This document shows positions 5,384 to 62,434 of a stretch of 64,000 bases of DNA, piece after piece. Numbering within the stretch: the first letter of the stretch is position 1; the number at the start of each line of letters is the position of its first letter. The stretch is taken from NCBI RefSeq assembly GCF_029266855.1, contig NZ_JAQSWB010000001.1:558001-622000 (forward strand). Direction: 5' to 3'. Below the pieces are notes generated by a model, which searched no databases, was not told the DNA's origin, and saw only the letters and a program-made list of their open reading frames with translations. Origin of the DNA: Fluviicola sp. GTDB lineage: Bacteria > Bacteroidota > Bacteroidia > Flavobacteriales_D > Crocinitomicaceae. Both the position numbers and the translations under genes were made by a program.

Positions 5384-5839
5384 TTAGTTTTTCCCGTAGG
5401 TCCGGTAGATCATTGTTTTCTTGTTGGAGCGCTCCGTTACCAATTCCTTGCCGTTGCATCGTATGATTTTGAAGGTTTCGCTGTAAGAAGTGTCTTTTTC
5501 ATCGTGAACCATAGTTAAAACATTGCCTTTCAATTTCCATTGACCGGAGGTTCTCCGCTGAATCAGAGGCAATCCTTTTTTTCGCCATGCAGGGTCAACG
5601 AGGGTGTCATAAATAATGAAGAATCCATTTTTCTTGAAATTCAAAACCACATCCGACGGTTGATTTTGATGATCTGTTTTACGCATGCCTGCATCTTCCG
5701 ACTTGATCAAAATCCATCTTCCTGTAATGGAGATTTCCCCCTGTTTGGTTGCATTTTTAACCTCTTTGGTTTCCGCCGAACACGATGCGAAAAGTAGTAG
5801 GATGAAAAATGGTAAAAAATTAATTGCCGATTGCTTCAT
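5384..5839 (-). CDS. putative lipoprotein with lipocalin-like domain
   Basis: 151 residues. A hydrophobic signal ends in the lipobox LLFASC near residue 20, so the mature protein should be lipid-anchored at C20. The rest is a small beta-rich domain with GRWILIKSED near the start and GQWKLKGNVLTMVHDEKDT in the middle, the layout of Bacteroidota lipocalin-like proteins. No catalytic residues are recognisable. It precedes no operon partner; the endonuclease/phosphatase gene ends 47 bases upstream of its ATG. A TATATTTA box lies four bases before the ATG, a near match to the leaderless pattern seen elsewhere in the window. Confidence 0.7.
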   Translation of the reverse strand: MKQSAINFLPFFILLLFASCSAETKEVKNATKQGEISITGRWILIKSEDAGMRKTDHQNQPSDVVLNFKKNGFFIIYDTLVDPAWRKKGLPLIQRRTSGQWKLKGNVLTMVHDEKDTSYSETFKIIRCNGKELVTERSNKKTMIYRTYGKN

Positions 5840-5886
5840 TCATTAAATATAAACGAATAATTTAAAGAATCAGAATTAGTTAGGAT

Positions 5887-10819: not shown

Positions 10820-10827
10820 TAATTTTG
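10820..10827 (+). promoter_or_regulatory. -7 box four bases before the start codon (leaderless candidate)
   Basis: TAATTTTG matches TAnnTTTG exactly and is followed by four bases and then ATG 10832. If transcription starts on the fifth base after the box, the mRNA begins at the A of the start codon. A TTTG at 10800-10803 could be the -33 element. Confidence 0.6.
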
Positions 10828-10831
10828 TTAT

Positions 10832-13783
10832 ATGAACAGAAAGACATTTCGCAAAGCCCCTTTCATTCTTTTCCTAGTTGCCGGATCAGGATTGATTACT
10901 TCAGCTCTTTTAAAAAAGCCTGCCCATCAATCGGTAAAAAAGCACAAAACAACTATTGTGTCTGATGAAGATCAATGGATTACAGCTGAACTTGCAAAAC
11001 TTTCGATGCAGGAACGCATTGCGCAATCCTTCATGGTCGCATGCTGGTCAAACAAAGGTAAAGATCATTTAGCCGAAACAGAATCCCTTGTACGGAATCA
11101 AAAGATCGGCGGACTGATCTTCTTCCAGGGTGAACGCGACAATCTGCAGGAGGCCATACAGCAGATGCAATCAGCTGCGAAAGTCCCTTTATTAATCGGC
11201 ATGGATGCTGAGTGGGGAACAGCTATGCGTCTTTCCGGAGAGCCACGTTTTCCTTATCAACAGACAATCGGAGCAGCAAATGATTTAAAACTGACAGAAC
11301 GGATCGGATATCACATGGGAATAGAATGTGACCTGCTTGGAATTCATATGAATTTCTCACCGGTTGCCGATGTGAACCTCAATTCGCAAAACCCCGTGAT
11401 CGGATTCAGGGCTTTTGGTTCCGACCCGCAACAGGTATCAAAACAAACGGCTGCCATGGTGAAAGGAATTGAAGATGCCGGAGTCATTTCCTGTGTAAAG
11501 CATTTTCCCGGACACGGTGATACGGACAAAGATTCCCACAAAGAACTCCCGACTGTTTCTCACAGCATCAGTGAATTTGAAAATAAAGATTTTCTTCCCT
11601 TCAAAAGCGGAATTGAAGCAGGAACCCGTTCGGTCATGGTTGCCCATTTAAATGTTCCTTCGCTGGACCCGAGCGGCACACCAAGCAGCTTATCCAAGGT
11701 AGTTATAGAAAGCTATTTACGCAAGAAGCTTGGATTCAAAGGCCTGGTTATTTCCGATGCTTTGAACATGAAAGCGGTTTCTGATAAATACGGCAAATCA
11801 GAAGTTGTGGCAAAGGCATATTTTGCAGGATGTGATATTTTATTATTTCCCGAAAACGTTCAGGATGCAATCAAATTGATCTACAGTAAAGTAGAAAGCG
11901 GCGAGTTGAGCAAAGAAGAAGTGAACGAACATTGCAAAAGAATTTTAAGAGCAAAATACCAGGCAATTGTCCATAAACCCATGATTAAGCGCAAAGATCC
12001 GGCTCCGGAACGCAAACTGATCATTAACCAGGTTTATGAAAAAGCCTTGCTGTGTTTGAGAAACGAAGACAACAACCTGCCTATAGACAAATTGGATAAG
12101 GAGATCATCCGGATCGCAGTAGGCACACATACGGCTTCTTTCAGAGATCGTTTAAATGACTATGCTAAAATAACTCACTATAAATACTTTACACCGGAAG
12201 AAGCAGTCCGCAGATTAAAATCCGTCAAATTGAACCCGGATGCCATTTATATTTTGGATTTCCATTCCGACGGTCAACGTGCACGCAATAACTACGGTTT
12301 CGGAGAATGGAAACAAGTACTCGACCTGCTTCCTGAAAATGCACAGGCAAGTGTGGCTCTATTCGGGAATCCATTGACATTTCAAAAAGCACAGGAGTTT
12401 CCCAAGGCAGTAAAATCAATCCTGTGTGCATATGAGAACACCGCTGCAGCGCAGGAACGCACGGCACAGGCAATCATGGGTGCATTCGACATCGACGGAA
12501 AGCTGGCAACAGACATCAGCAGTTCATGGAAAAACGGGTTTGGAATTCATGTAAAGAATAACGGAAGACTGAAATATTCTCAACCCGAAGAATTGGGATT
12601 AAATCCCGAAAAACTGAAAGAAGTAGATGAGATCGTAGCTAAAGCCATTGAAGCAAAAGCATTCCCTGGCTGTCAGATCGTTGTGGCGATCGACGGAAAA
12701 ATTGTCATTCAGAAATCGTACGGAACAACCATCTATGAAAACGGTGACAGCATTACGAACAATCATATTTACGACATTGCTTCCATTACCAAGATCGCTT
12801 CATCGACAACTGCACTGATGCGTTTGAAAACACTCAATAAATTCGATGAAAAAATGAGTCTGAACCAGTTGGTGCCGGAATACGTGAAAGAAACACCTTA
12901 TGCCGACCTGAAAGCAATTGATCTCCTGACACATCAGGCCGGTTTAACTCCATGGATTGCCTTCTATAAGCGAACAATGGAAAACGGAGAGTTGAATAAG
13001 AATATCTACGGTTCAACGAATAAAGGAGTTTATAGCAGAGCAGTAGCCGATAACATCTTCATCAAAGACGATTATTGGAAAACCATGCTGAAGATTATTG
13101 TCGAGACACCATTGACGGGTAAAAAGTCTTACGAATATTCCGATCTGAGCTATTACTTTTTCAATAAATACATTGAGCTTAGCAGTGGAATGGGACAGGA
13201 TGAATTCGTTGAAAAAGAGATTTACCGGCCTTTGGGATTACAAACTATGACCTATTTGCCATTGAAAAAATTCAATAAGAAACGAATCGTTCCTACCGAA
13301 TACGACAAAGAATTCCGCAAGCAGCTGATCCATGGATATGTGCATGATCCGGGAGCAGCCATGATGGGTGGAGTAGCAGGCCATGCAGGATTGTTCTCCA
13401 ACGCAACAGATTTGGCGGCTTTGATGCAGTTTTTATTGAATAAAGGCCAGATAGGAGACCAATCGATTATCAAAAAAGAAATTGTAGATCAGTTTACGGC
13501 GTGCCAATTTTGCCCCGGAAACAGAAGAGGAATTGGTTTTGACAAACCGACAGTAAGTTTAAAAAACGGTCCGACTTGTGATTTGGTTTCCCCTTCAACC
13601 TTCGGTCATTCCGGGTTTACAGGAACAATCACATGGGCAGACCCCGTAAATAAGGTGAATTTCGTGTTCTTATCGAACCGTGTTTACCCCGACGCAGACA
13701 ATTGGAGAATAACAAAGATGAGCGTGCGCACAGAGATTCAGCGAGTAATCTACGAAGCACTTTTAGAAGCACGCCAGAACTAA
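10832..13783 (+). CDS. GH3 beta-N-acetylglucosaminidase (NagZ-like) fused to a serine beta-lactamase-like domain
   Basis: 983 residues with an N-terminal signal/anchor segment (about 10-28). Residues about 50-370 form a GH3 N-terminal domain with the NagZ signature KHFPGHGDTDKDSH near 223. The next 200 residues resemble a GH3 C-terminal domain. From about 600 there is a beta-lactamase/class C esterase domain with SITK near 650 (catalytic Ser/Lys), YSDLSYY near 767 and HSGFTGT near 925. The likely role is trimming peptidoglycan or muropeptides in the periplasm, with one domain cutting GlcNAc links and the other an ester or amide. bshA follows 11 bases later. Confidence 0.92.
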   Translation: MNRKTFRKAPFILFLVAGSGLITSALLKKPAHQSVKKHKTTIVSDEDQWITAELAKLSMQERIAQSFMVACWSNKGKDHLAETESLVRNQKIGGLIFFQGERDNLQEAIQQMQSAAKVPLLIGMDAEWGTAMRLSGEPRFPYQQTIGAANDLKLTERIGYHMGIECDLLGIHMNFSPVADVNLNSQNPVIGFRAFGSDPQQVSKQTAAMVKGIEDAGVISCVKHFPGHGDTDKDSHKELPTVSHSISEFENKDFLPFKSGIEAGTRSVMVAHLNVPSLDPSGTPSSLSKVVIESYLRKKLGFKGLVISDALNMKAVSDKYGKSEVVAKAYFAGCDILLFPENVQDAIKLIYSKVESGELSKEEVNEHCKRILRAKYQAIVHKPMIKRKDPAPERKLIINQVYEKALLCLRNEDNNLPIDKLDKEIIRIAVGTHTASFRDRLNDYAKITHYKYFTPEEAVRRLKSVKLNPDAIYILDFHSDGQRARNNYGFGEWKQVLDLLPENAQASVALFGNPLTFQKAQEFPKAVKSILCAYENTAAAQERTAQAIMGAFDIDGKLATDISSSWKNGFGIHVKNNGRLKYSQPEELGLNPEKLKEVDEIVAKAIEAKAFPGCQIVVAIDGKIVIQKSYGTTIYENGDSITNNHIYDIASITKIASSTTALMRLKTLNKFDEKMSLNQLVPEYVKETPYADLKAIDLLTHQAGLTPWIAFYKRTMENGELNKNIYGSTNKGVYSRAVADNIFIKDDYWKTMLKIIVETPLTGKKSYEYSDLSYYFFNKYIELSSGMGQDEFVEKEIYRPLGLQTMTYLPLKKFNKKRIVPTEYDKEFRKQLIHGYVHDPGAAMMGGVAGHAGLFSNATDLAALMQFLLNKGQIGDQSIIKKEIVDQFTACQFCPGNRRGIGFDKPTVSLKNGPTCDLVSPSTFGHSGFTGTITWADPVNKVNFVFLSNRVYPDADNWRITKMSVRTEIQRVIYEALLEARQN

Positions 13784-21312: not shown

Positions 21313-21313
21313 G

Positions 21314-21387
21314 TAGCGAGACGGAGAGTTGAACTCCGGACCTCAGGGTTATGAATCCTGCGCTCTAACCAACTGAGCTATCTCGCC
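21314..21387 (-). tRNA. tRNA-Met (anticodon CAT)
   Basis: A 74-base cloverleaf on the minus strand: acceptor GGCGAGA/TCTCGCT, D arm GCTC-GAGC, anticodon loop TTCATAA, T arm CGGAG-TTCAACT-CTCCG and discriminator A at 21314. CCA is not encoded. Anticodon CAT is at 21351-21353. The anticodon stem has an A31-C39 mismatch next to the loop. The elongator type is preferred, because the initiator hallmarks (C1-A72 mismatch, three G-C pairs in the anticodon stem) are absent. A lysidine-modified tRNA-Ile cannot be fully excluded. Confidence 0.93.
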
Positions 21388-21391
21388 ATAA

Positions 21392-21413
21392 GCCTTTCGT
21401 TTCCCTGAAAGGC
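21392..21413 (-). other. hairpin in the tRNA-Met precursor leader
   Basis: On the minus strand GCCTTTC and GAAAGGC form a perfect 7-bp stem around eight bases. The first stem base (21413) is the fifth base after the promoter box at 21418-21425, so it should be the 5' end of the precursor. Confidence 0.5.
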
Positions 21414-21417
21414 GGTG

Positions 21418-21425
21418 CAAATATA
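21418..21425 (-). promoter_or_regulatory. -7 promoter box of tRNA-Met
   Basis: TATATTTG on the minus strand matches TAnnTTTG exactly, 30 bases before the mature tRNA 5' end. Confidence 0.65.
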
Positions 21426-23792: not shown

Positions 23793-25487
23793 TTAACCCA
23801 ATTCGTTGATCGAATCCATCAAGTTTTTACTGATATCTTCCAATGAAGCTTGTGAGAAATCAAATTTCAATCCTGCGGTTTCATAAATTTCAGGAATCGA
23901 CTTTGTATAACCTAATGAAAGCGCGTTTTTATAATCGGTCAAAGCCTTAGCCGGATTCTTTTTATAATTACTCCAAACACCCAAAGCACCCAATTGAGCA
24001 ATTCCGTATTCAATATAATAGAATGGGACCTCAAACAAATGCAACTGTTTTTGCCAAGAACTTTCCAAAACTGCTTCGTAACCTTCGTAGTCAACCAATC
24101 CGGTTCCAAAGCGTTTACTCAAATTCAACCATTCCTGCGTTCTTTCGGCAGTTGAATGATCAGCATGTGTATAGATCCAATGCTGGAATGCATCGATTTG
24201 TGCGATCCACGGCAAAACTTTCACTACAGACTCCAACTGTTCCAATTTAGCGCGTCTCAGATCATTCTCATCGGTGTAAAATTCAGACCAGAGATCCATA
24301 GTCAGTAATTCCATAGACATGGAAGCAAGCTCTGCAACCTCTGAAGGCAAAGACTTAAAGCCTGTCAATTCCAGGTCCCGGCTCAGGAAAGAGTGCACCG
24401 CATGACCGCCTTCATGGACCATCGTGGTCAAATCTCTTTGAGCACCGGCTGCATTCATGAAAATAAATGGAATTCCGGATTCGTAAAGCGGGTAGTTGTA
24501 ACCTCCCGGTGCTTTCCCCACTTTTGAATCGAGGTCTAAAAAGCCCCCGCTTTTCATTGTTTTCAGGCAATCACCGAAATAAGCATCCAGCTTTTCAAAA
24601 ACGGCAATGGATTTATCGAGTAACTCTTCTCCGTTCTCAAATGGTTTTAAAGGAGCCAATCCATCCGGATCAACTTCCGTATCCCACGGCTTTAATTTGG
24701 GTTTTCCTAATTTTTCCAGTTTCTTCAAATTCAGCTGCTTCACGATCGGAACAATCAATTTCTCTATTGCATCATGAAAAGCCAGGCAATCTTCAACTGT
24801 ATAGTCAAATCTTCCAAGCGCCTTGAATTTATAATCGCGGTAATCCGTGCAATCTGCATTCTTTGCAACCTGATTTCTCAGTTTGATCAAAAGATTGAAC
24901 AGATCATCCAATGCATTGCGGTCCTGTAATCTACGCGCCGTGATGAGTTCATAGACCTCTTTGCGAACTGATTCGTCCGGATCTTTGAGAAAATTCGCAG
25001 CCTGCGGCATAGTTAATTCCTTTCCCTTGTAGGTAATCATTTGTTTCCCCGAAATTGCTCCGAATTGTTGGCTCAGGGTATTTAATTCCGTTTCAATTGC
25101 AATATTCTCTTCCCGGAACAATTCCAGTGCAGATTGGACTCCTCTGAAATAGATAGCATAAGCCTTGTCTGCAGCCAATTCTTTGACAAAAGGAGAGGCC
25201 ATCATCTTTTGGTTCAGTGAATCTTCAAAAGGAGCGAGGTTCGGCTGAATCTCAGTTACAAAGAACTGGTATGCCTGCGTCAGTTTTTCATCAAGCGTGT
25301 TAATAGTCATTTTAATATAGCGCCACGCCATATTTTCTTCCAAAAGAGCTTCCAGTTCACTTTTATCAGACAACCATTCTTTAAAGGATTCTTTTGAAGA
25401 AATATCCCTGTTTTGAAGATCCAAAAGGTACATTTCTACGGATTTCCAACTTTCGCATTTGAAGTCGGCTGAAACAAATTTTCTCAT
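23793..25487 (-). CDS. M3 family oligoendopeptidase (PepF-like)
   Basis: 564 residues, the usual size. The zinc site is MVHEGGHAVHSF near residue 360 (HExxH) with the downstream Glu in LPSEVAELASMSMELL. It hydrolyses peptides of about 6-20 residues in the cytoplasm; no signal peptide is present. It is transcribed from a perfect TATTTTTG box four bases before the ATG, so it may be leaderless. Flanking palindromes at both ends isolate it as a single gene. Confidence 0.93.
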   Translation of the reverse strand: MRKFVSADFKCESWKSVEMYLLDLQNRDISSKESFKEWLSDKSELEALLEENMAWRYIKMTINTLDEKLTQAYQFFVTEIQPNLAPFEDSLNQKMMASPFVKELAADKAYAIYFRGVQSALELFREENIAIETELNTLSQQFGAISGKQMITYKGKELTMPQAANFLKDPDESVRKEVYELITARRLQDRNALDDLFNLLIKLRNQVAKNADCTDYRDYKFKALGRFDYTVEDCLAFHDAIEKLIVPIVKQLNLKKLEKLGKPKLKPWDTEVDPDGLAPLKPFENGEELLDKSIAVFEKLDAYFGDCLKTMKSGGFLDLDSKVGKAPGGYNYPLYESGIPFIFMNAAGAQRDLTTMVHEGGHAVHSFLSRDLELTGFKSLPSEVAELASMSMELLTMDLWSEFYTDENDLRRAKLEQLESVVKVLPWIAQIDAFQHWIYTHADHSTAERTQEWLNLSKRFGTGLVDYEGYEAVLESSWQKQLHLFEVPFYYIEYGIAQLGALGVWSNYKKNPAKALTDYKNALSLGYTKSIPEIYETAGLKFDFSQASLEDISKNLMDSINELG

Positions 25488-25491
25488 ACTA

Positions 25492-25499
25492 CAAAAATA
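25492..25499 (-). promoter_or_regulatory. -7 box four bases before the start codon (leaderless candidate)
   Basis: TATTTTTG on the minus strand, then TAGT, then ATG (25487-25485). The spacing is identical to the boxes at 10820, 38082, 40818 and 62427. Confidence 0.6.
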
Positions 25500-30575: not shown

Positions 30576-31061
30576 ATGAAAACAATCAGACTCATCCCGT
30601 TCCTTTTCATCGGGTTTTTCCTAATAAGTTCCGGATTCAGTAATCCGAAGCCAAGTGAAACAGAAAAAATCGACCTACTTATTGACAGTTGGCACAAAGC
30701 TGCTGCTGAAGCTAATTATACGAATTACTTCCAGGTCATGGCTGATAATTTTATATTCATGGGAACAGATCCTACGGAACGCTGGAATAAAGAACAGTTC
30801 GGAGCATTCTGCAAACCTTATTTCGACCAGGGGAAAGGATGGGACTTCCGGAAAATTGAGCGCCACATTGAAATTTCCAAAGACGGAAAAACTGCCTGGT
30901 TTGACGAGCGGATCAACACCTGGATGAAAGATTGCAGGGGAAGTGGTGTTTTGATCAAGACAGGAAAAGAATGGAAGATCAGTCAGTATAACCTGGCTGT
31001 ATTGATCGAAAATGATAAGATACAGGAATTCATCCGCTTGCGCGATGCTGTAAAGGATTAA
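30576..31061 (+). CDS. exported SnoaL/NTF2-like (DUF4440-type) protein
   Basis: 161 residues from ATG 30576, with a signal peptide (IPFLFIGFFLISSGFS). The cone-fold pattern includes IDSWHKAAAEANYTNYFQVM near residue 35, DNFIFMGTDPTERW and AWFDERINTW near 105, typical of nuclear transport factor 2-like small domains. These bind small hydrophobic ligands or are enzymes; no catalytic set is clear. The ATG lies directly behind a strong terminator, so its promoter must overlap the hairpin, or it depends on read-through. Confidence 0.78.
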   Translation: MKTIRLIPFLFIGFFLISSGFSNPKPSETEKIDLLIDSWHKAAAEANYTNYFQVMADNFIFMGTDPTERWNKEQFGAFCKPYFDQGKGWDFRKIERHIEISKDGKTAWFDERINTWMKDCRGSGVLIKTGKEWKISQYNLAVLIENDKIQEFIRLRDAVKD

Positions 31062-31609
31062 TGTGTTTTTATTCCATACTGTTCACGATAGTAATCCTGA
31101 CCTCCTGCTGAAAGTAATAAAATCATTCCCGCTCTCAGATCAGATTGGAAGAGACTTAAATGGGTGCCGTAATTTCCAAGCACACTTAATTTCTCATTGT
31201 AAAAGAAAAAAAACGGGGGTATTCCTTTTGCTTTTATTCTCCTTTTAGCGTAAAAGAAATTATTTTTCCATCTCCCTTTTAAGAAGTACTGATCTGCCAA
31301 AGTGTCCCTAAGGAAAAAAGTCACCATTAAACCTCTCTCCAAGCTATCCAGCTGAATAAGGGTTTCTTTCCAATTTGTCAAGGTGTCTTTTCTCGAAAGA
31401 CTCATCTTATTTAGGGTATAAAATGAATTGTAAGGGTGTGGTTGTTCTATTGAATCAGGAATTGCGTAATTGCAGATTCGCAAAGTAGAAAAAGTGTGAG
31501 GTACAGGTTCGCCTTTGATTACCTGATCTATTTTCTTCCAAGAAACGCATGAACTAACTAGACAGACCAGTGAGATTACTGTCATTATATTGCGGATTTT
31601 AAGAATCAT
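31058..31609 (-). CDS. hypothetical lipoprotein
   Basis: 183 residues. The N-terminus MILKIRNIMTVISLVCLVSSC is a lipoprotein signal with lipobox VSSC. The rest is a beta-rich domain I do not recognise, with DQYFLKGRWKNNFFYAKRR in the centre. Its stop overlaps the stop of the opposite-strand NTF2-like gene by four bases. A TAACTTCG sequence five bases before the ATG resembles the short-leader promoters seen elsewhere. ATG 31585 is an alternative start. Confidence 0.7.
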   Translation of the reverse strand: MILKIRNIMTVISLVCLVSSCVSWKKIDQVIKGEPVPHTFSTLRICNYAIPDSIEQPHPYNSFYTLNKMSLSRKDTLTNWKETLIQLDSLERGLMVTFFLRDTLADQYFLKGRWKNNFFYAKRRIKAKGIPPFFFFYNEKLSVLGNYGTHLSLFQSDLRAGMILLLSAGGQDYYREQYGIKTH

Positions 31610-38081: not shown

Positions 38082-38089
38082 TAACTTTG
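38082..38089 (+). promoter_or_regulatory. -7 box four bases before the start codon (leaderless candidate)
   Basis: TAACTTTG, then GTTT, then ATG 38094. A TTG at 38058-38060 lies 21 bases upstream as a possible -33 element. If the true start were ATG 38121, the leader would be 27 bases. Confidence 0.6.
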
Positions 38090-38093
38090 GTTT

Positions 38094-39131
38094 ATGTTTA
38101 AAGCAAGAAGGACTTACTGGATGGCGCAAATAGGAGGATGGGCTTTACTCTCATTACTTATTTTTTCGGCATCTACCTTTTCAAATCAAAGTATCGACCT
38201 GCAAACAATCGTTATTTCCACGAGTTGTTTCTTCGTGATGGGAATCGTACTGACTCACCTGATGCGTTATTTCTTCATTGCAATGGGCTGGCTGAATATG
38301 CGCTTATCGAATTTGATTCCGCGCGTTCTGCTTACTTCGGTCTTCTTTGCGGCGATCATGTCGATTTTAAACACGCTCGTTTCGCATTTTGTTTCAGGAA
38401 CTCCTTTCAGTTTTTCCATTGTTGAATTCTCACTGAACGTTGCGGCAACCCTGATCTTCTTCGTGTTGTGGAACAGTGTTTACTTTACGTTTCACTTTTT
38501 CCAACGGTCACGCGAACAGGAGGTAAGCAACTTACAGCTTACAGCCAGTCACAATGAAATTGAATTGAAAAACCTGCGTTCGCAACTCAATCCACATTTC
38601 TTGTTCAATTCCCTGAATTCTATTCGCGCATTGATAGATATCGAACCCTACCGTGCACAGGAAAACATTACGAAACTCTCCAATTTATTACGGAAATCAT
38701 TAATCATCGGAAGCGAACAACTGGTTCCGTTGGAAGAAGAACTGTCGATCGTACAGGATTACCTGGACCTGGAGAAAGTACGTTTTGAGGAACGCCTGGA
38801 GATTATCCAGGAACTGAATCCAAAAGTGATGAGTTTCCTGATTCCGCCTTTTATTTTGCAAACATTGGTTGAAAACGCTCTGAAACATGGAATTTCACAG
38901 CTGATTGAAGGCGGAACCGTTTGGATCAGGGTCAAAAAAAAGACAGAATCCATTTTGCTTGAAGTAGAAAACAATGGGAATCTGCGCTCAACACGTAAAG
39001 ACTCCATAGGAATAGGAATCTCCAATACACTCCGGAGACTGGAGTTACAATACAAGGGAAAAGCGCATTTTGAATTAAAACAGAACACCCCGAACACTGT
39101 TATTGCAATCATAGAAATTAAAGAAGCATGA
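38094..39131 (+). CDS. LytS/YehU-type sensor histidine kinase
   Basis: 345 residues. Four membrane helices (about 10-150) form the sensor. The His-kinase domain of the LytS type follows, with phospho-acceptor His in LRSQLNPHFLFNSLNSIRAL near 170, and an ATPase part with ENALKHGI and GIGISNTLRRL. It has no periplasmic sensor domain. The stop overlaps the response regulator start by four bases (ATGA), so it forms one two-component system with that gene. Confidence 0.93.
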   Translation: MFKARRTYWMAQIGGWALLSLLIFSASTFSNQSIDLQTIVISTSCFFVMGIVLTHLMRYFFIAMGWLNMRLSNLIPRVLLTSVFFAAIMSILNTLVSHFVSGTPFSFSIVEFSLNVAATLIFFVLWNSVYFTFHFFQRSREQEVSNLQLTASHNEIELKNLRSQLNPHFLFNSLNSIRALIDIEPYRAQENITKLSNLLRKSLIIGSEQLVPLEEELSIVQDYLDLEKVRFEERLEIIQELNPKVMSFLIPPFILQTLVENALKHGISQLIEGGTVWIRVKKKTESILLEVENNGNLRSTRKDSIGIGISNTLRRLELQYKGKAHFELKQNTPNTVIAIIEIKEA

Positions 39132-39976: not shown

Positions 39977-40813
39977 TCAACTCTCAATTAAAGTGATTCC
40001 ATTCTCGTGGAGACTGATCAGACGCTGTTTGTAAAGATTTCCCACAACTTGTTTGAATACCTTTTTGGACCAGCCTGTTCTGTATTGAATTTCTTCCGGA
40101 TCCGATTTGTCCGTTAAATCCAGGAATCCACCATTGTTTTCAAGCATTGCCAGGAATTTCCGGGCATGTGTGTCAATTTTGTCGTAGCCAGGTCTTTCCA
40201 AAACGATGTCCAGTTTACCATCAGGTCTTACTGTTTTCACATATCCTCTCAGAGTTTCACCCATTCTTACACGACGGTGCAGTTCATTCTTGAAAATCAA
40301 TCCCTGATAACGGTTGTTGACCAATACTTTCAAGCCAAGATCCGTAAATTCCCAAACCATTAAATCAACTTCATCATCAGCCTGCAATTCATCATTGTTT
40401 ACTGTATCCATGTACATTCCGATACGGGATGTGCCAACTAAGCGTTCAGTTGCCTCATCAATATACATGTATATGAAATAATGTTTGCCTTCTTCAAGCG
40501 GCTTCGGCTGTTCGCGATAAGGGATCAGCAAGTGCTTTTCAACTCCCCATTCGGCAAAAGCACCGTATTGGTTTACTTCAACTATTTTCAGGAAAGCAAA
40601 TTGATTTACCAAAACTTTCGGGGTAAGTGTAGTTGCAATGATCCTGCCTTCAGAATCTTTGTACAAAAACACATTTACCATATCATCTATCTGAAAAGAC
40701 GGATCAACATATTTTGTAGGCAACAATACATCATTGCCTTCTTCATCGACCAAATAAGCTCCCGGACTCGTAAAACGATCCAGGCGCAATTCATTATAAA
40801 CTCCTAATTCCAC
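39977..40813 (-). CDS. CvfB-like S1 RNA-binding protein
   Basis: 278 residues starting with GTG (40811-40813). There are tandem S1-type OB domains (about 1-215), with VNQYGAFAEWGVEKHLLIPY near 70 and ARGYVKTVRPDGKLD-like sequence near 190. A C-terminal winged helix follows (YRTGWSKKVFKQVVGNLYKQ). This is the YitL/CvfB organisation; the family influences virulence gene expression in Gram-positives by RNA binding. The promoter box ends four bases before the GTG, supporting both this start and leaderless initiation. Confidence 0.88.
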   Translation of the reverse strand: MELGVYNELRLDRFTSPGAYLVDEEGNDVLLPTKYVDPSFQIDDMVNVFLYKDSEGRIIATTLTPKVLVNQFAFLKIVEVNQYGAFAEWGVEKHLLIPYREQPKPLEEGKHYFIYMYIDEATERLVGTSRIGMYMDTVNNDELQADDEVDLMVWEFTDLGLKVLVNNRYQGLIFKNELHRRVRMGETLRGYVKTVRPDGKLDIVLERPGYDKIDTHARKFLAMLENNGGFLDLTDKSDPEEIQYRTGWSKKVFKQVVGNLYKQRLISLHENGITLIES

Positions 40814-40817
40814 AGAA

Positions 40818-40825
40818 CAAAGGTA
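40818..40825 (-). promoter_or_regulatory. -7 box four bases before a GTG start (leaderless candidate)
   Basis: TACCTTTG on the minus strand, then TTCT, then GTG. The spacing equals that of four ATG genes in this window. Confidence 0.6.
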
Positions 40826-47771: not shown

Positions 47772-48139
47772 GACTTTTCCTTATTAAAGTGAATAATGGT
47801 TTCGAAACCGAAGTAAAGTTACAAGCAACTGATTTTAAAGGTTTAAAGTCAATAACAACAATGTTTTAAGTTTTTCGATAGATTGGAAGCTATATTAATT
47901 TTCAACAAACTATTTGGAACAAAAAATCGTTTTAGATATGAGAAAATACGTTTGAGCAATGTGTACTTTCTTTTAAAACGAATGAAGAATAAAATCTTGG
48001 ACTAATTTTTGGAATATATAAGAAGTGGTTAATTCCGGAATCCGGTTTGATTTTGCTTGTTGGATTTTTCGTTAAAAACAGGTTCTGTTTTCAATTATTC
48101 ACGGTTTCTCAAAAAATAAACACACACGTAATCAATCAT
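47772..48139. other. 368-base intergenic region
   Basis: AT-rich, no gene. A TAACTTTA box (minus strand, about 47814-47821) and a GGTTTCGAAACC palindrome (47798-47809) lie upstream of the lamin-tail gene and may form its promoter region. Nothing else is recognisable. Confidence 0.4.
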
Positions 48140-48670
48140 TTACATTCCGTCAACAAGATTCATAAAAGAGTTTGTAAATTGTTCCAATTCGGATTGGGTT
48201 TCGGAATCAGTCAGTTGTCCGGACATTGAAATTTTACTTTTTATCCCGGAAATCAGAAGGGTGGTTTCATCAATAAATTGTGCCATTAATGTACGCATGA
48301 TCAGCTGCAATTCTTCGTGAGCTTTTTCTCCCTGGGCAGAGGCGGTGATCAATCCTGTTGGTTTATCTGAGAAAATGGTGGTTGATACACACCATTCGAT
48401 TGCATTTTTTAGTCCGCTGGGAATACTGAACACATATTCCGGAGTACAAATGATAATTCCATCCGCTTGTTCGATCTGCTTTCTAAAATTGACTACTTCC
48501 TCCGGGGGATTATTTACGGATAATTCAGGATCGAAGTGGGGAAGAGATTTCAATTCATTGAAAAGAATCCATTCGAAATCCTTCCCGGTTTCTTTTGCCA
48601 GGAACTCAATTAATCGTTGATTGGCAGAGTTTTCGCTTGCGCTTCCGATGATTGCGAGGACTGTTTTCAT
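48140..48670 (-). CDS. NADPH-dependent FMN reductase family protein
   Basis: 176 residues from ATG 48670; 22 additional upstream codons (to 48736) are unrelated to the family. A flavodoxin-like fold starts LAIIGSASENSANQRLIEF (FMN-phosphate loop), with GIIICTPEYVFSIPSGLKNA (PEY motif) near 70. It reduces quinones, azo compounds or flavin. A near-consensus TATCTTTT box lies four bases before the ATG, so this gene may also be leaderless. Confidence 0.9.
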   Translation of the reverse strand: MKTVLAIIGSASENSANQRLIEFLAKETGKDFEWILFNELKSLPHFDPELSVNNPPEEVVNFRKQIEQADGIIICTPEYVFSIPSGLKNAIEWCVSTTIFSDKPTGLITASAQGEKAHEELQLIMRTLMAQFIDETTLLISGIKSKISMSGQLTDSETQSELEQFTNSFMNLVDGM

Positions 48671-48771
48671 TCTTAAAAGATAGGAGACTTTAGACGAAAG
48701 ACTCAAGACAAAATGAAGATTGAAATAAAAATTCAAGTCTTCTGTCTTACATATCGAGTCTTAAGTCTTCG

Positions 48772-52833: not shown

Positions 52834-52931
52834 GGGGTAAGCTACTCTTATCGCACCGCTACAACCTCATACCTTTGCTACGTTCCCGTCCTGGAGGATT
52901 AAGAGGGAGCTGGTCGTAAAAGACTTACCCC
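52834..52931 (-). ncRNA. ffs: small bacterial signal recognition particle RNA (4.5S type)
   Basis: About 98 bases on the minus strand. The ends GGGGTAAG (52931-52924) and CTTACCCC (52841-52834) close the hairpin. The centre has the SRP domain IV signature: CCAGG, apical stem ACG-GGAA-CGT with a GGAA tetraloop, then AGCA and AAGGTA. It pairs with Ffh to target membrane proteins to YidC/Sec. No Alu domain is present. Exact ends are inferred from the pairing. Confidence 0.88.
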
Positions 52932-52935
52932 GCCG

Positions 52936-52943
52936 CAAAATTA
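52936..52943 (-). promoter_or_regulatory. -7 promoter box of the SRP RNA gene
   Basis: TAATTTTG on the minus strand; four bases (CGGC) separate it from the first paired base of the RNA at 52931, which fixes the start position relative to the box. Confidence 0.7.
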
Positions 52944-61873: not shown

Positions 61874-62422
61874 TTATCTCACAGACAGATGCATGGAGAT
61901 CTCATCGTGATAACGGCCATTTTGCTTGAAAAAATCCGGGATCCTTCCATGTTCGACAAATCCCATTTTCCGATATAATGCCAACCCGGCTTTGTTATCA
62001 GCATAAACCTGCAGGAATAGGATTTCCAACTCGGAATTGTTCTTCGCCCAATCAATTGCGGCATTTAGTATTGCAGTTCCCAGGCCACAGCCTTGCCATT
62101 CCTTGTGCATTCCCATTCCAAAAACAGCAGTATGTCGCAATATTTTACGCTGATTTCCGTCCACATTAATATTCCCAACCAGTTTCCCGTCAAATTCCGC
62201 TACCAGAAACAAGGCATTTGATCGATTAATATAGTTTGCCAGGACTTGTTCTTCTTCAGCAAGGGTAGGGTTGAACTCACCCTCCGTTAATGGAACATAC
62301 TCTTCATCGTACACAAAACCATGCACAAATTCCATTACTTTGGGCGCGTCGGCAACTTCCACATGGCGAAGCAACACACTTCGTCCATCTTTTAAACCAA
62401 TTGTAAGGGGCGAGAATTTCAT
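61874..62422 (-). CDS. GNAT family N-acetyltransferase
   Basis: 182 residues. The acetyl-CoA loop is GMGMHKEWQGCGLGTAILNA near 103, followed by FLQVYADNKAGLALYRKMGF, a clear single GNAT domain. The substrate is unknown. Its promoter box ends four bases before the ATG, so it may be leaderless. Confidence 0.88.
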   Translation of the reverse strand: MKFSPLTIGLKDGRSVLLRHVEVADAPKVMEFVHGFVYDEEYVPLTEGEFNPTLAEEEQVLANYINRSNALFLVAEFDGKLVGNINVDGNQRKILRHTAVFGMGMHKEWQGCGLGTAILNAAIDWAKNNSELEILFLQVYADNKAGLALYRKMGFVEHGRIPDFFKQNGRYHDEISMHLSVR

Positions 62423-62426
62423 CTTT

Positions 62427-62434
62427 CAAAATTA
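62427..62434 (-). promoter_or_regulatory. -7 box four bases before the start codon (leaderless candidate)
   Basis: TAATTTTG on the minus strand, then AAAG, then ATG (62422-62420). The spacing is the same as in four other genes of the window. Confidence 0.6.

Follow-up and report, generated by a model that had tools for sequence, protein, structure and literature searches.

Five genes in a 64,000-nucleotide stretch of the Fluviicola sp. genome (C1:558001-622000, hereafter the window; the genome comprises 4.30 Mb in 14 contigs) are predicted, with a probability of about 0.88, to be transcribed as leaderless mRNAs from Bacteroidota housekeeping promoters. The original prediction named five places at which the octamer TAnnTTTG is followed by exactly four bases and a start codon, and a check of the sequence found every one of them exact at its position, with ATG at four sites and GTG at 40813 (Table 1). 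In all five, the octamer matches perfectly the -7 box of the housekeeping (sigma-A) promoter of Bacteroidota. According to the mechanism we propose, each site would be a promoter of the housekeeping sigma factor, with four bases between the end of its -7 box and the start codon; RNA polymerase would start at the fifth base past the box, where the start codon has its A (or G), and the mRNA would open with AUG (or GUG) and carry no leader. As for leaderless mRNAs in other systems, the ribosome would then have to recognise the start codon by its 5'-terminal position.

The distance between box and transcription start is taken from papers on Flavobacterium. Start mapping in F. psychrophilum places the box at -12 to -5 (PMC9723704), and with the box so placed the start codon should also be where transcription begins; in F. 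johnsoniae the box lies 4 or 5 nt from the transcription start (PMC6847099), so that an RNA end one base off could also occur. The RNA ends in Fluviicola sp., and the leaderless translation of these messages, are what we infer from this analogy and from the sequence. The rule that had placed the RNA starts at the initial base of the start codon is supported by these published maps and by the conservation of the spacing described below. Two RNA genes of the window had been proposed as calibrators of this rule. For the tRNA-Met precursor (21313-21425, minus strand) the calibration holds, since its 5' leader hairpin starts at 21413, the fifth base past the box. We had at one point considered this calibrator lost in a second genome of the same genus (G241), which was wrong: the stem letters differ there, and the hairpin starts again at the fifth base past the box. 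The small SRP RNA is a fair calibrator rather than a strict one: its long stem does run from 52931, but the predicted fold begins earlier, with an additional pairing of 52934-52933, and the Rfam model starts at 52937, within the box.

Table 1. Boxed sites of the window, with the two RNA genes used as calibrators
Site	Box	Spacer and start codon	Span	Strand	Gene or remark
Exact box	TAATTTTG, 10820-10827	TTAT, ATG	10820..10834	+	ORF 10832-13783, 983 codons
Exact box	TATTTTTG, 25492-25499	TAGT, ATG	25485..25499	-	Peptidase M3, ORF 23793-25487, 564 codons
Exact box	TAACTTTG, 38082-38089	GTTT, ATG	38082..38096	+	Histidine kinase, ORF 38094-39131, 345 codons
Exact box	TACCTTTG, 40818-40825	TTCT, GTG	40811..40825	-	CvfB-like S1-domain protein, ORF 39977-40813, 278 codons
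Exact box	TAATTTTG, 62427-62434	AAAG, ATG	62420..62434	-	GNAT acetyltransferase, ORF 61874-62422, 182 codons
One-mismatch box	TATATTTA	ATGA, ATG	5837..5851	-	Lipocalin-like gene, ORF 5384-5839
One-mismatch box	TATCTTTT	AAGA, ATG	48668..48682	-	FMN reductase gene 48140-48670; weak case
Exact box, outside the set	TANNTTTG	N4, ATG	47947..47961	+	Five codons only; absent from the original prediction
Calibrator	TATATTTG	four bases	21413..21425	-	tRNA-Met precursor, leader hairpin from 21413
Calibrator	TAATTTTG	four bases	52931..52943	-	Small SRP RNA, main stem; unchanged in G241

The five genes with exact boxes are named after their Pfam matches. The site at 10820 retains both its box and its spacing in G241. 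Its ORF matches the glycoside hydrolase 3 and beta-lactamase families in Pfam, so that a single protein encoded at 10832-13783 on the plus strand fuses a glycoside hydrolase 3 N-terminal domain with a beta-lactamase-family domain. The peptidase M3 site is likewise retained, and its homologs can be aligned from residue 2; the histidine kinase site is retained with 25 identical N-terminal residues, and the CvfB-like site with altered spacer letters. At the acetyltransferase gene the G241 box reads TAATTTTA and the spacing of 4 is unchanged. Two further genes had been listed as fitting with one mismatch in the box, and both are as described. The lipocalin-like gene has TATATTTA at spacing 4 in G241 as well; for the FMN reductase gene we found no corresponding box in that genome. 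The exact site at 47947 on the plus strand was taken as a chance occurrence, having a five-codon ORF, a G among the two free ('nn') positions and a box that is lost in the same-genus genome. It had also been claimed that all other boxed genes of the window have leaders of 10 to 21 bases. This is mostly right: the implied leaders are 10 nt (ORF 19435) and then 12, 13, 13, 14, 15, 16, 21 and 21 nt, but boxes implying longer ones exist, with 30 nt for ORF 31058-31609 and 48 and 54 nt for two more called starts.

A genome-wide count of box-to-start distances had been proposed together with the sites. We sampled 862 kb of the window's contig, window included, or roughly one fifth of the genome; a hexamer-model gene finder blind to promoters called 778 genes in it. 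The count gave a sharp excess at spacing 4, with 28 of the 778 called starts. At spacings 0 to 3 there are 0, 1, 0 and 1 genes, at spacings 5 to 14 there are 6, 3, 2, 3, 2, 0, 0, 0, 2 and 0, and a broad leadered mode comprises 82 called starts at spacings 15 to 28. Against a background mean of 0.45 per spacing at distances of 61 to 160, the spacing-4 count has a Poisson P of about 4e-40. Six altered boxes used as controls yielded 0 or 1 gene each at spacing 4, and TAnnTTTA, one base off, yielded 9. Genome-wide, TANNTTTG-N4-ATG was counted 165 times, the reversed control 73 times and the spacing-11 version 55 times. In the 862 kb there are 42 of these spacing-4 ATG sites, of which 25 stand at called starts; three GTG sites bring the number to 28. 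Adding five ATG sites that lie upstream of called starts and in frame with them gives the set of 33 used below, the unbiased count being the 28 because these five were chosen with the box in view. Among the 12 leftover N4-ATG sites, three open uncalled ORFs of 220 (L012:16692, plus strand), 166 (L017:8026, plus strand) and 61 codons (L010:5935, minus strand), which may be leaderless genes.

The octamer is a common one in an AT-rich genome, and one could ask whether its place before start codons is accidental. The octamer itself has no excess in the window (46 occurrences versus 63 expected from shuffles), and one of the six exact window sites is spurious. The excess therefore resides in the spacing and not in the number of boxes, and 28 of 778 starts at one single spacing, together with the conservation of this spacing in the second genome, refute chance as the origin of the set, although any single gene could owe its box to it.

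Several properties of the sites are those of promoters. The mapped promoters of F. johnsoniae follow the consensus TAHHTTTG, with G avoided in both free positions (PMC6847099). This rule holds for all five window sites and for 32 of the 33 overall: G appears in the free positions of 1/33 sites, compared with 8/82 leadered boxes, 7/12 other N4-ATG sites and 155/474 boxes inside genes (Fisher P of 1e-4 for the 33 sites versus the in-gene boxes). A same-strand gene lies within 40 nt upstream for only 3 of the 33 spacing-4 genes versus 226 of 776 among all genes (P 0.01), which indicates that spacing-4 genes tend to come first in their transcription units. A -33 TTTG element is not evident, only a T-rich zone roughly 17-18 bases ahead of the box; F. 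johnsoniae is likewise described as lacking a clear -33 motif (PMC6847099). The two classes were alike in the folding predicted for the initial 40 nt of the mRNA, with means of -2.4 and -2.3 kcal/mol. As to function, the 33 genes include six matches to DNA-binding regulators (MarR twice, one of these two just below the cut-off, HxlR, Rrf2, Penicillinase_R and HTH_3), several matches to RNA- or protein-modifying enzymes, and four genes without any match. Regulators also occur among the leadered genes (78 of the 82 scanned, with the 25 commonest families listed), and we do not claim a functional enrichment.

Bacteroidota favour A/T just before the start codon, and the spacing-4 box falls within this favoured stretch. 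It would therefore be conceivable that the element is a translational enhancer adjoining the start codon, or that the real transcription start lies upstream of it. We regard this as very unlikely: the same box occurs at 82 other called starts, where it lies 15-28 bases ahead, and precedes two untranslated RNA genes (those of the SRP RNA and tRNA-Met), the sites obey the no-G rule of mapped promoters, and intermediate positions at spacings 10 to 12 are absent.

Comparison with G241 (800 kb, L100-L139) gave a usable ortholog for 27 of the 33 spacing-4 genes. Exactly four bases separate box and start codon in 24 of these 27; one ortholog has five, and two have no exact box, one of them being the window acetyltransferase with its TAATTTTA box at spacing 4. 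Leadered genes (spacing 10 to 40, n=70) presented 31 cases with the same spacing, 26 with another and 13 with none, so the retention of spacing differs markedly between the two groups (24/27 versus 31/70, P 7e-5). Genes at spacings 5 to 9 retain their own spacing in 9 of 12 cases. The ten TAnnTTTA genes are less conserved: of the six with an ortholog, two retain the box at spacing 4. Over the 27 genes, mismatches with G241 amount to 7.9% of box positions, 40.7% of positions in the four-base spacer and 32.4% of those in the 24 bases upstream. With the spacing kept and its letters mismatching to this extent, what is conserved is the length of the spacer while its letters drift. The start codons are alike in all 27 pairs, and codons 2-8 already present mismatches of 11.6, 5.3 and 24.9% at codon positions 1, 2 and 3, respectively, a periodicity which, together with the agreement of start codons, argues that translation begins at the boxed codon.

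This last point bears on a further possibility, that the box is indeed a promoter and the RNA starts at the boxed ATG, but that translation begins at a later in-frame codon, which would make these messages short-leader mRNAs. The promoter-blind gene finder provides some ground for it, since in 5 of the 33 genes it favoured an ATG 24-54 nt downstream. Inside the window it chose the boxed start at 10832, 40813 and 62422, and a later ATG at 25433 and 38121, for the peptidase M3 and the histidine kinase. The agreement of start codons and the early coding periodicity stand against such a shift, and the N-termini of precisely these two proteins are kept in G241, with the M3 homologs aligning from residue 2. 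We consider it very improbable that the later codons are the ones used, and initiation probably takes place at the boxed codon.

A survey of 198 genomes of the phylum, 49 of them from the window's class (own genome included), addressed the reach of this arrangement. Matches at spacing 4 outnumber those at spacing 11 in 47 of the 49 class genomes (5187 versus 3448 matches; the exceptions are G162 and G186) and outnumber the reversed pattern in 44 (5187 versus 3569), G049, G088, G091, G126 and G186 being those that stay behind. Outside the class the totals cover two families. The one with the strongest whole-genome spacing-4 excess, f23, has more matches at spacing 4 than at spacing 11 in all 8 genomes (329 versus 70), and the other, f16, in only 6 of 43 (462 versus 654). 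Profiles by spacing were made for two further genomes: in G115, from the same class, spacing 4 accounts for 12 of 332 genes and each other spacing from 0 to 12 for 0-4, and G144, the one profiled genome of f23, has 4 of 244 genes at spacing 4, a peak but a thin one. Despite the spacing-4 excess of its family, G144 has Shine-Dalgarno-like sequences at 56 of 244 starts, versus 32 of 778 in our genome.

Retention of leaderlessness gene by gene across the order is not general. For cvfB, a TAnnTTTG or TAnnTTTA box at spacing 4-5 was found in 10 of 30 loci, fetched out of 45 matches, and for peptidase M3 a spacing-4 box was found in 2 of 29, our genome and one of the same genus. Among 80 named relatives of cvfB (L175-L254), many of which are close Flavobacterium, 59 have TAnnTTTG within 60 nt; the spacing is 3-5 in 8 of them, 8 in 3, 13 in 1 and at least 15 in 47. 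Most of these named relatives carry a leadered promoter, which counts against the leaderless reading, as does the weaker retention of the TAnnTTTA set. The nearest named CvfB relatives found, in a search that may leave out records of this genome itself, belong to Flavobacteriales bacterium UBA7666 (95% identity) and a Fluviicola MAG (70%); the organism is therefore probably one of the Flavobacteriales, like both Flavobacterium species whose start sites have been mapped. In the same 80, TAnnTTTG was not found at spacings 9-12 or 14, and one TAnnTTTA stands at 12. Such a distribution indicates that cvfB shifted between the leaderless and the leadered arrangement and seldom stopped between.

The zone beside the spacing-4 peak is nearly empty in the profiled genomes. 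Implied leaders of 6-8 nt (spacings 10-12) belong to 0 of 778 genes in our genome, 0 of 736 in G241, 2 of 332 in G115 and 1 of 244 in G144, counted over 862 kb of contig 1, L100-L139 for G241, and L150-L159 with L165-L174 for G115. Spacings 5-9 hold 16, 13, 11 and 4 genes in the same four genomes, and spacings 13-14 hold 2, 5, 6 and 0. Such a gap would be accounted for if selection acted against leaders that fall short of what ordinary initiation needs but exceed what leaderless initiation tolerates. From this we tentatively put forward, as a possibility that we do not hold to be the probable one, that mRNAs of Bacteroidia fall into two classes, with leaders of 0-5 nt (leaderless or nearly so) and of about 10 nt or more; that leaders of 6-8 nt are selected against; that promoters switch from one class to the other without stopping between, as for cvfB; and that a class-wide initiation route dependent on the 5' end exists beside the leadered one and was missed by surveys of the TATAAT type. 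The six genes at spacings 13-14 in G115 make the gap narrow there, which lowers the odds of this two-class reading. The ribosomes of Bacteroidia are reported to hide their anti-Shine-Dalgarno end (PMC9976891).

Leaderless mRNAs have already been reported in the phylum, so the idea itself is not new there and the present genes add members. RNA sequencing in F. psychrophilum measured leaderless mRNAs for 5.5% of the 890 genes with mapped starts (PMC9723704). That set and ours have in common their phylum and a TAnnTTTG box at -12 to -5, and differ in that ours is predicted from sequence; the available portions of the F. psychrophilum account describe neither a leader-length gap nor a conservation of spacing. 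In F. johnsoniae 13% of leaders are, by implication, of 10 nt or less (PMC6847099), and in Bacteroides thetaiotaomicron about 3.7% of 5' UTRs are shorter than 10 nt (PMC7366714). Both papers present the same box and a 4-5 nt distance from box to start, as here, but in their accessible text they stress the leadered majority and do not set exactly leaderless genes apart. A 2011 survey used the same logic, recognising leaderless genes by a promoter box at a set distance ahead of the start codon, and with TATAAT-like boxes it found such genes in 1 of 37 Bacteroidetes/Chlorobi genomes (PMC3160421); in the part available, it sought TANNNT-type boxes only and names that restriction as a limitation. 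A study of 2017 suspected leaderless mRNAs in Bacteroidetes from base biases (PMC5397173). The leader-length gap, which was not sought by name, does not appear as such in the portions of the open-licence literature covered. Less expected than the leaderless genes themselves are the absence of 6-8 nt leaders and the prevalence of spacing 4 over spacing 11 in nearly all class genomes.

Shine-Dalgarno signals are mostly missing in Bacteroidota, and the way in which start codons are selected by their ribosomes is still being worked out. Genes recognisable as leaderless by their sequence alone, together with a near-empty zone of leader lengths, provide a test set for 5'-end initiation in the phylum, and the spacing-4 box offers a simple means of correcting annotated gene starts in Bacteroidota genomes.
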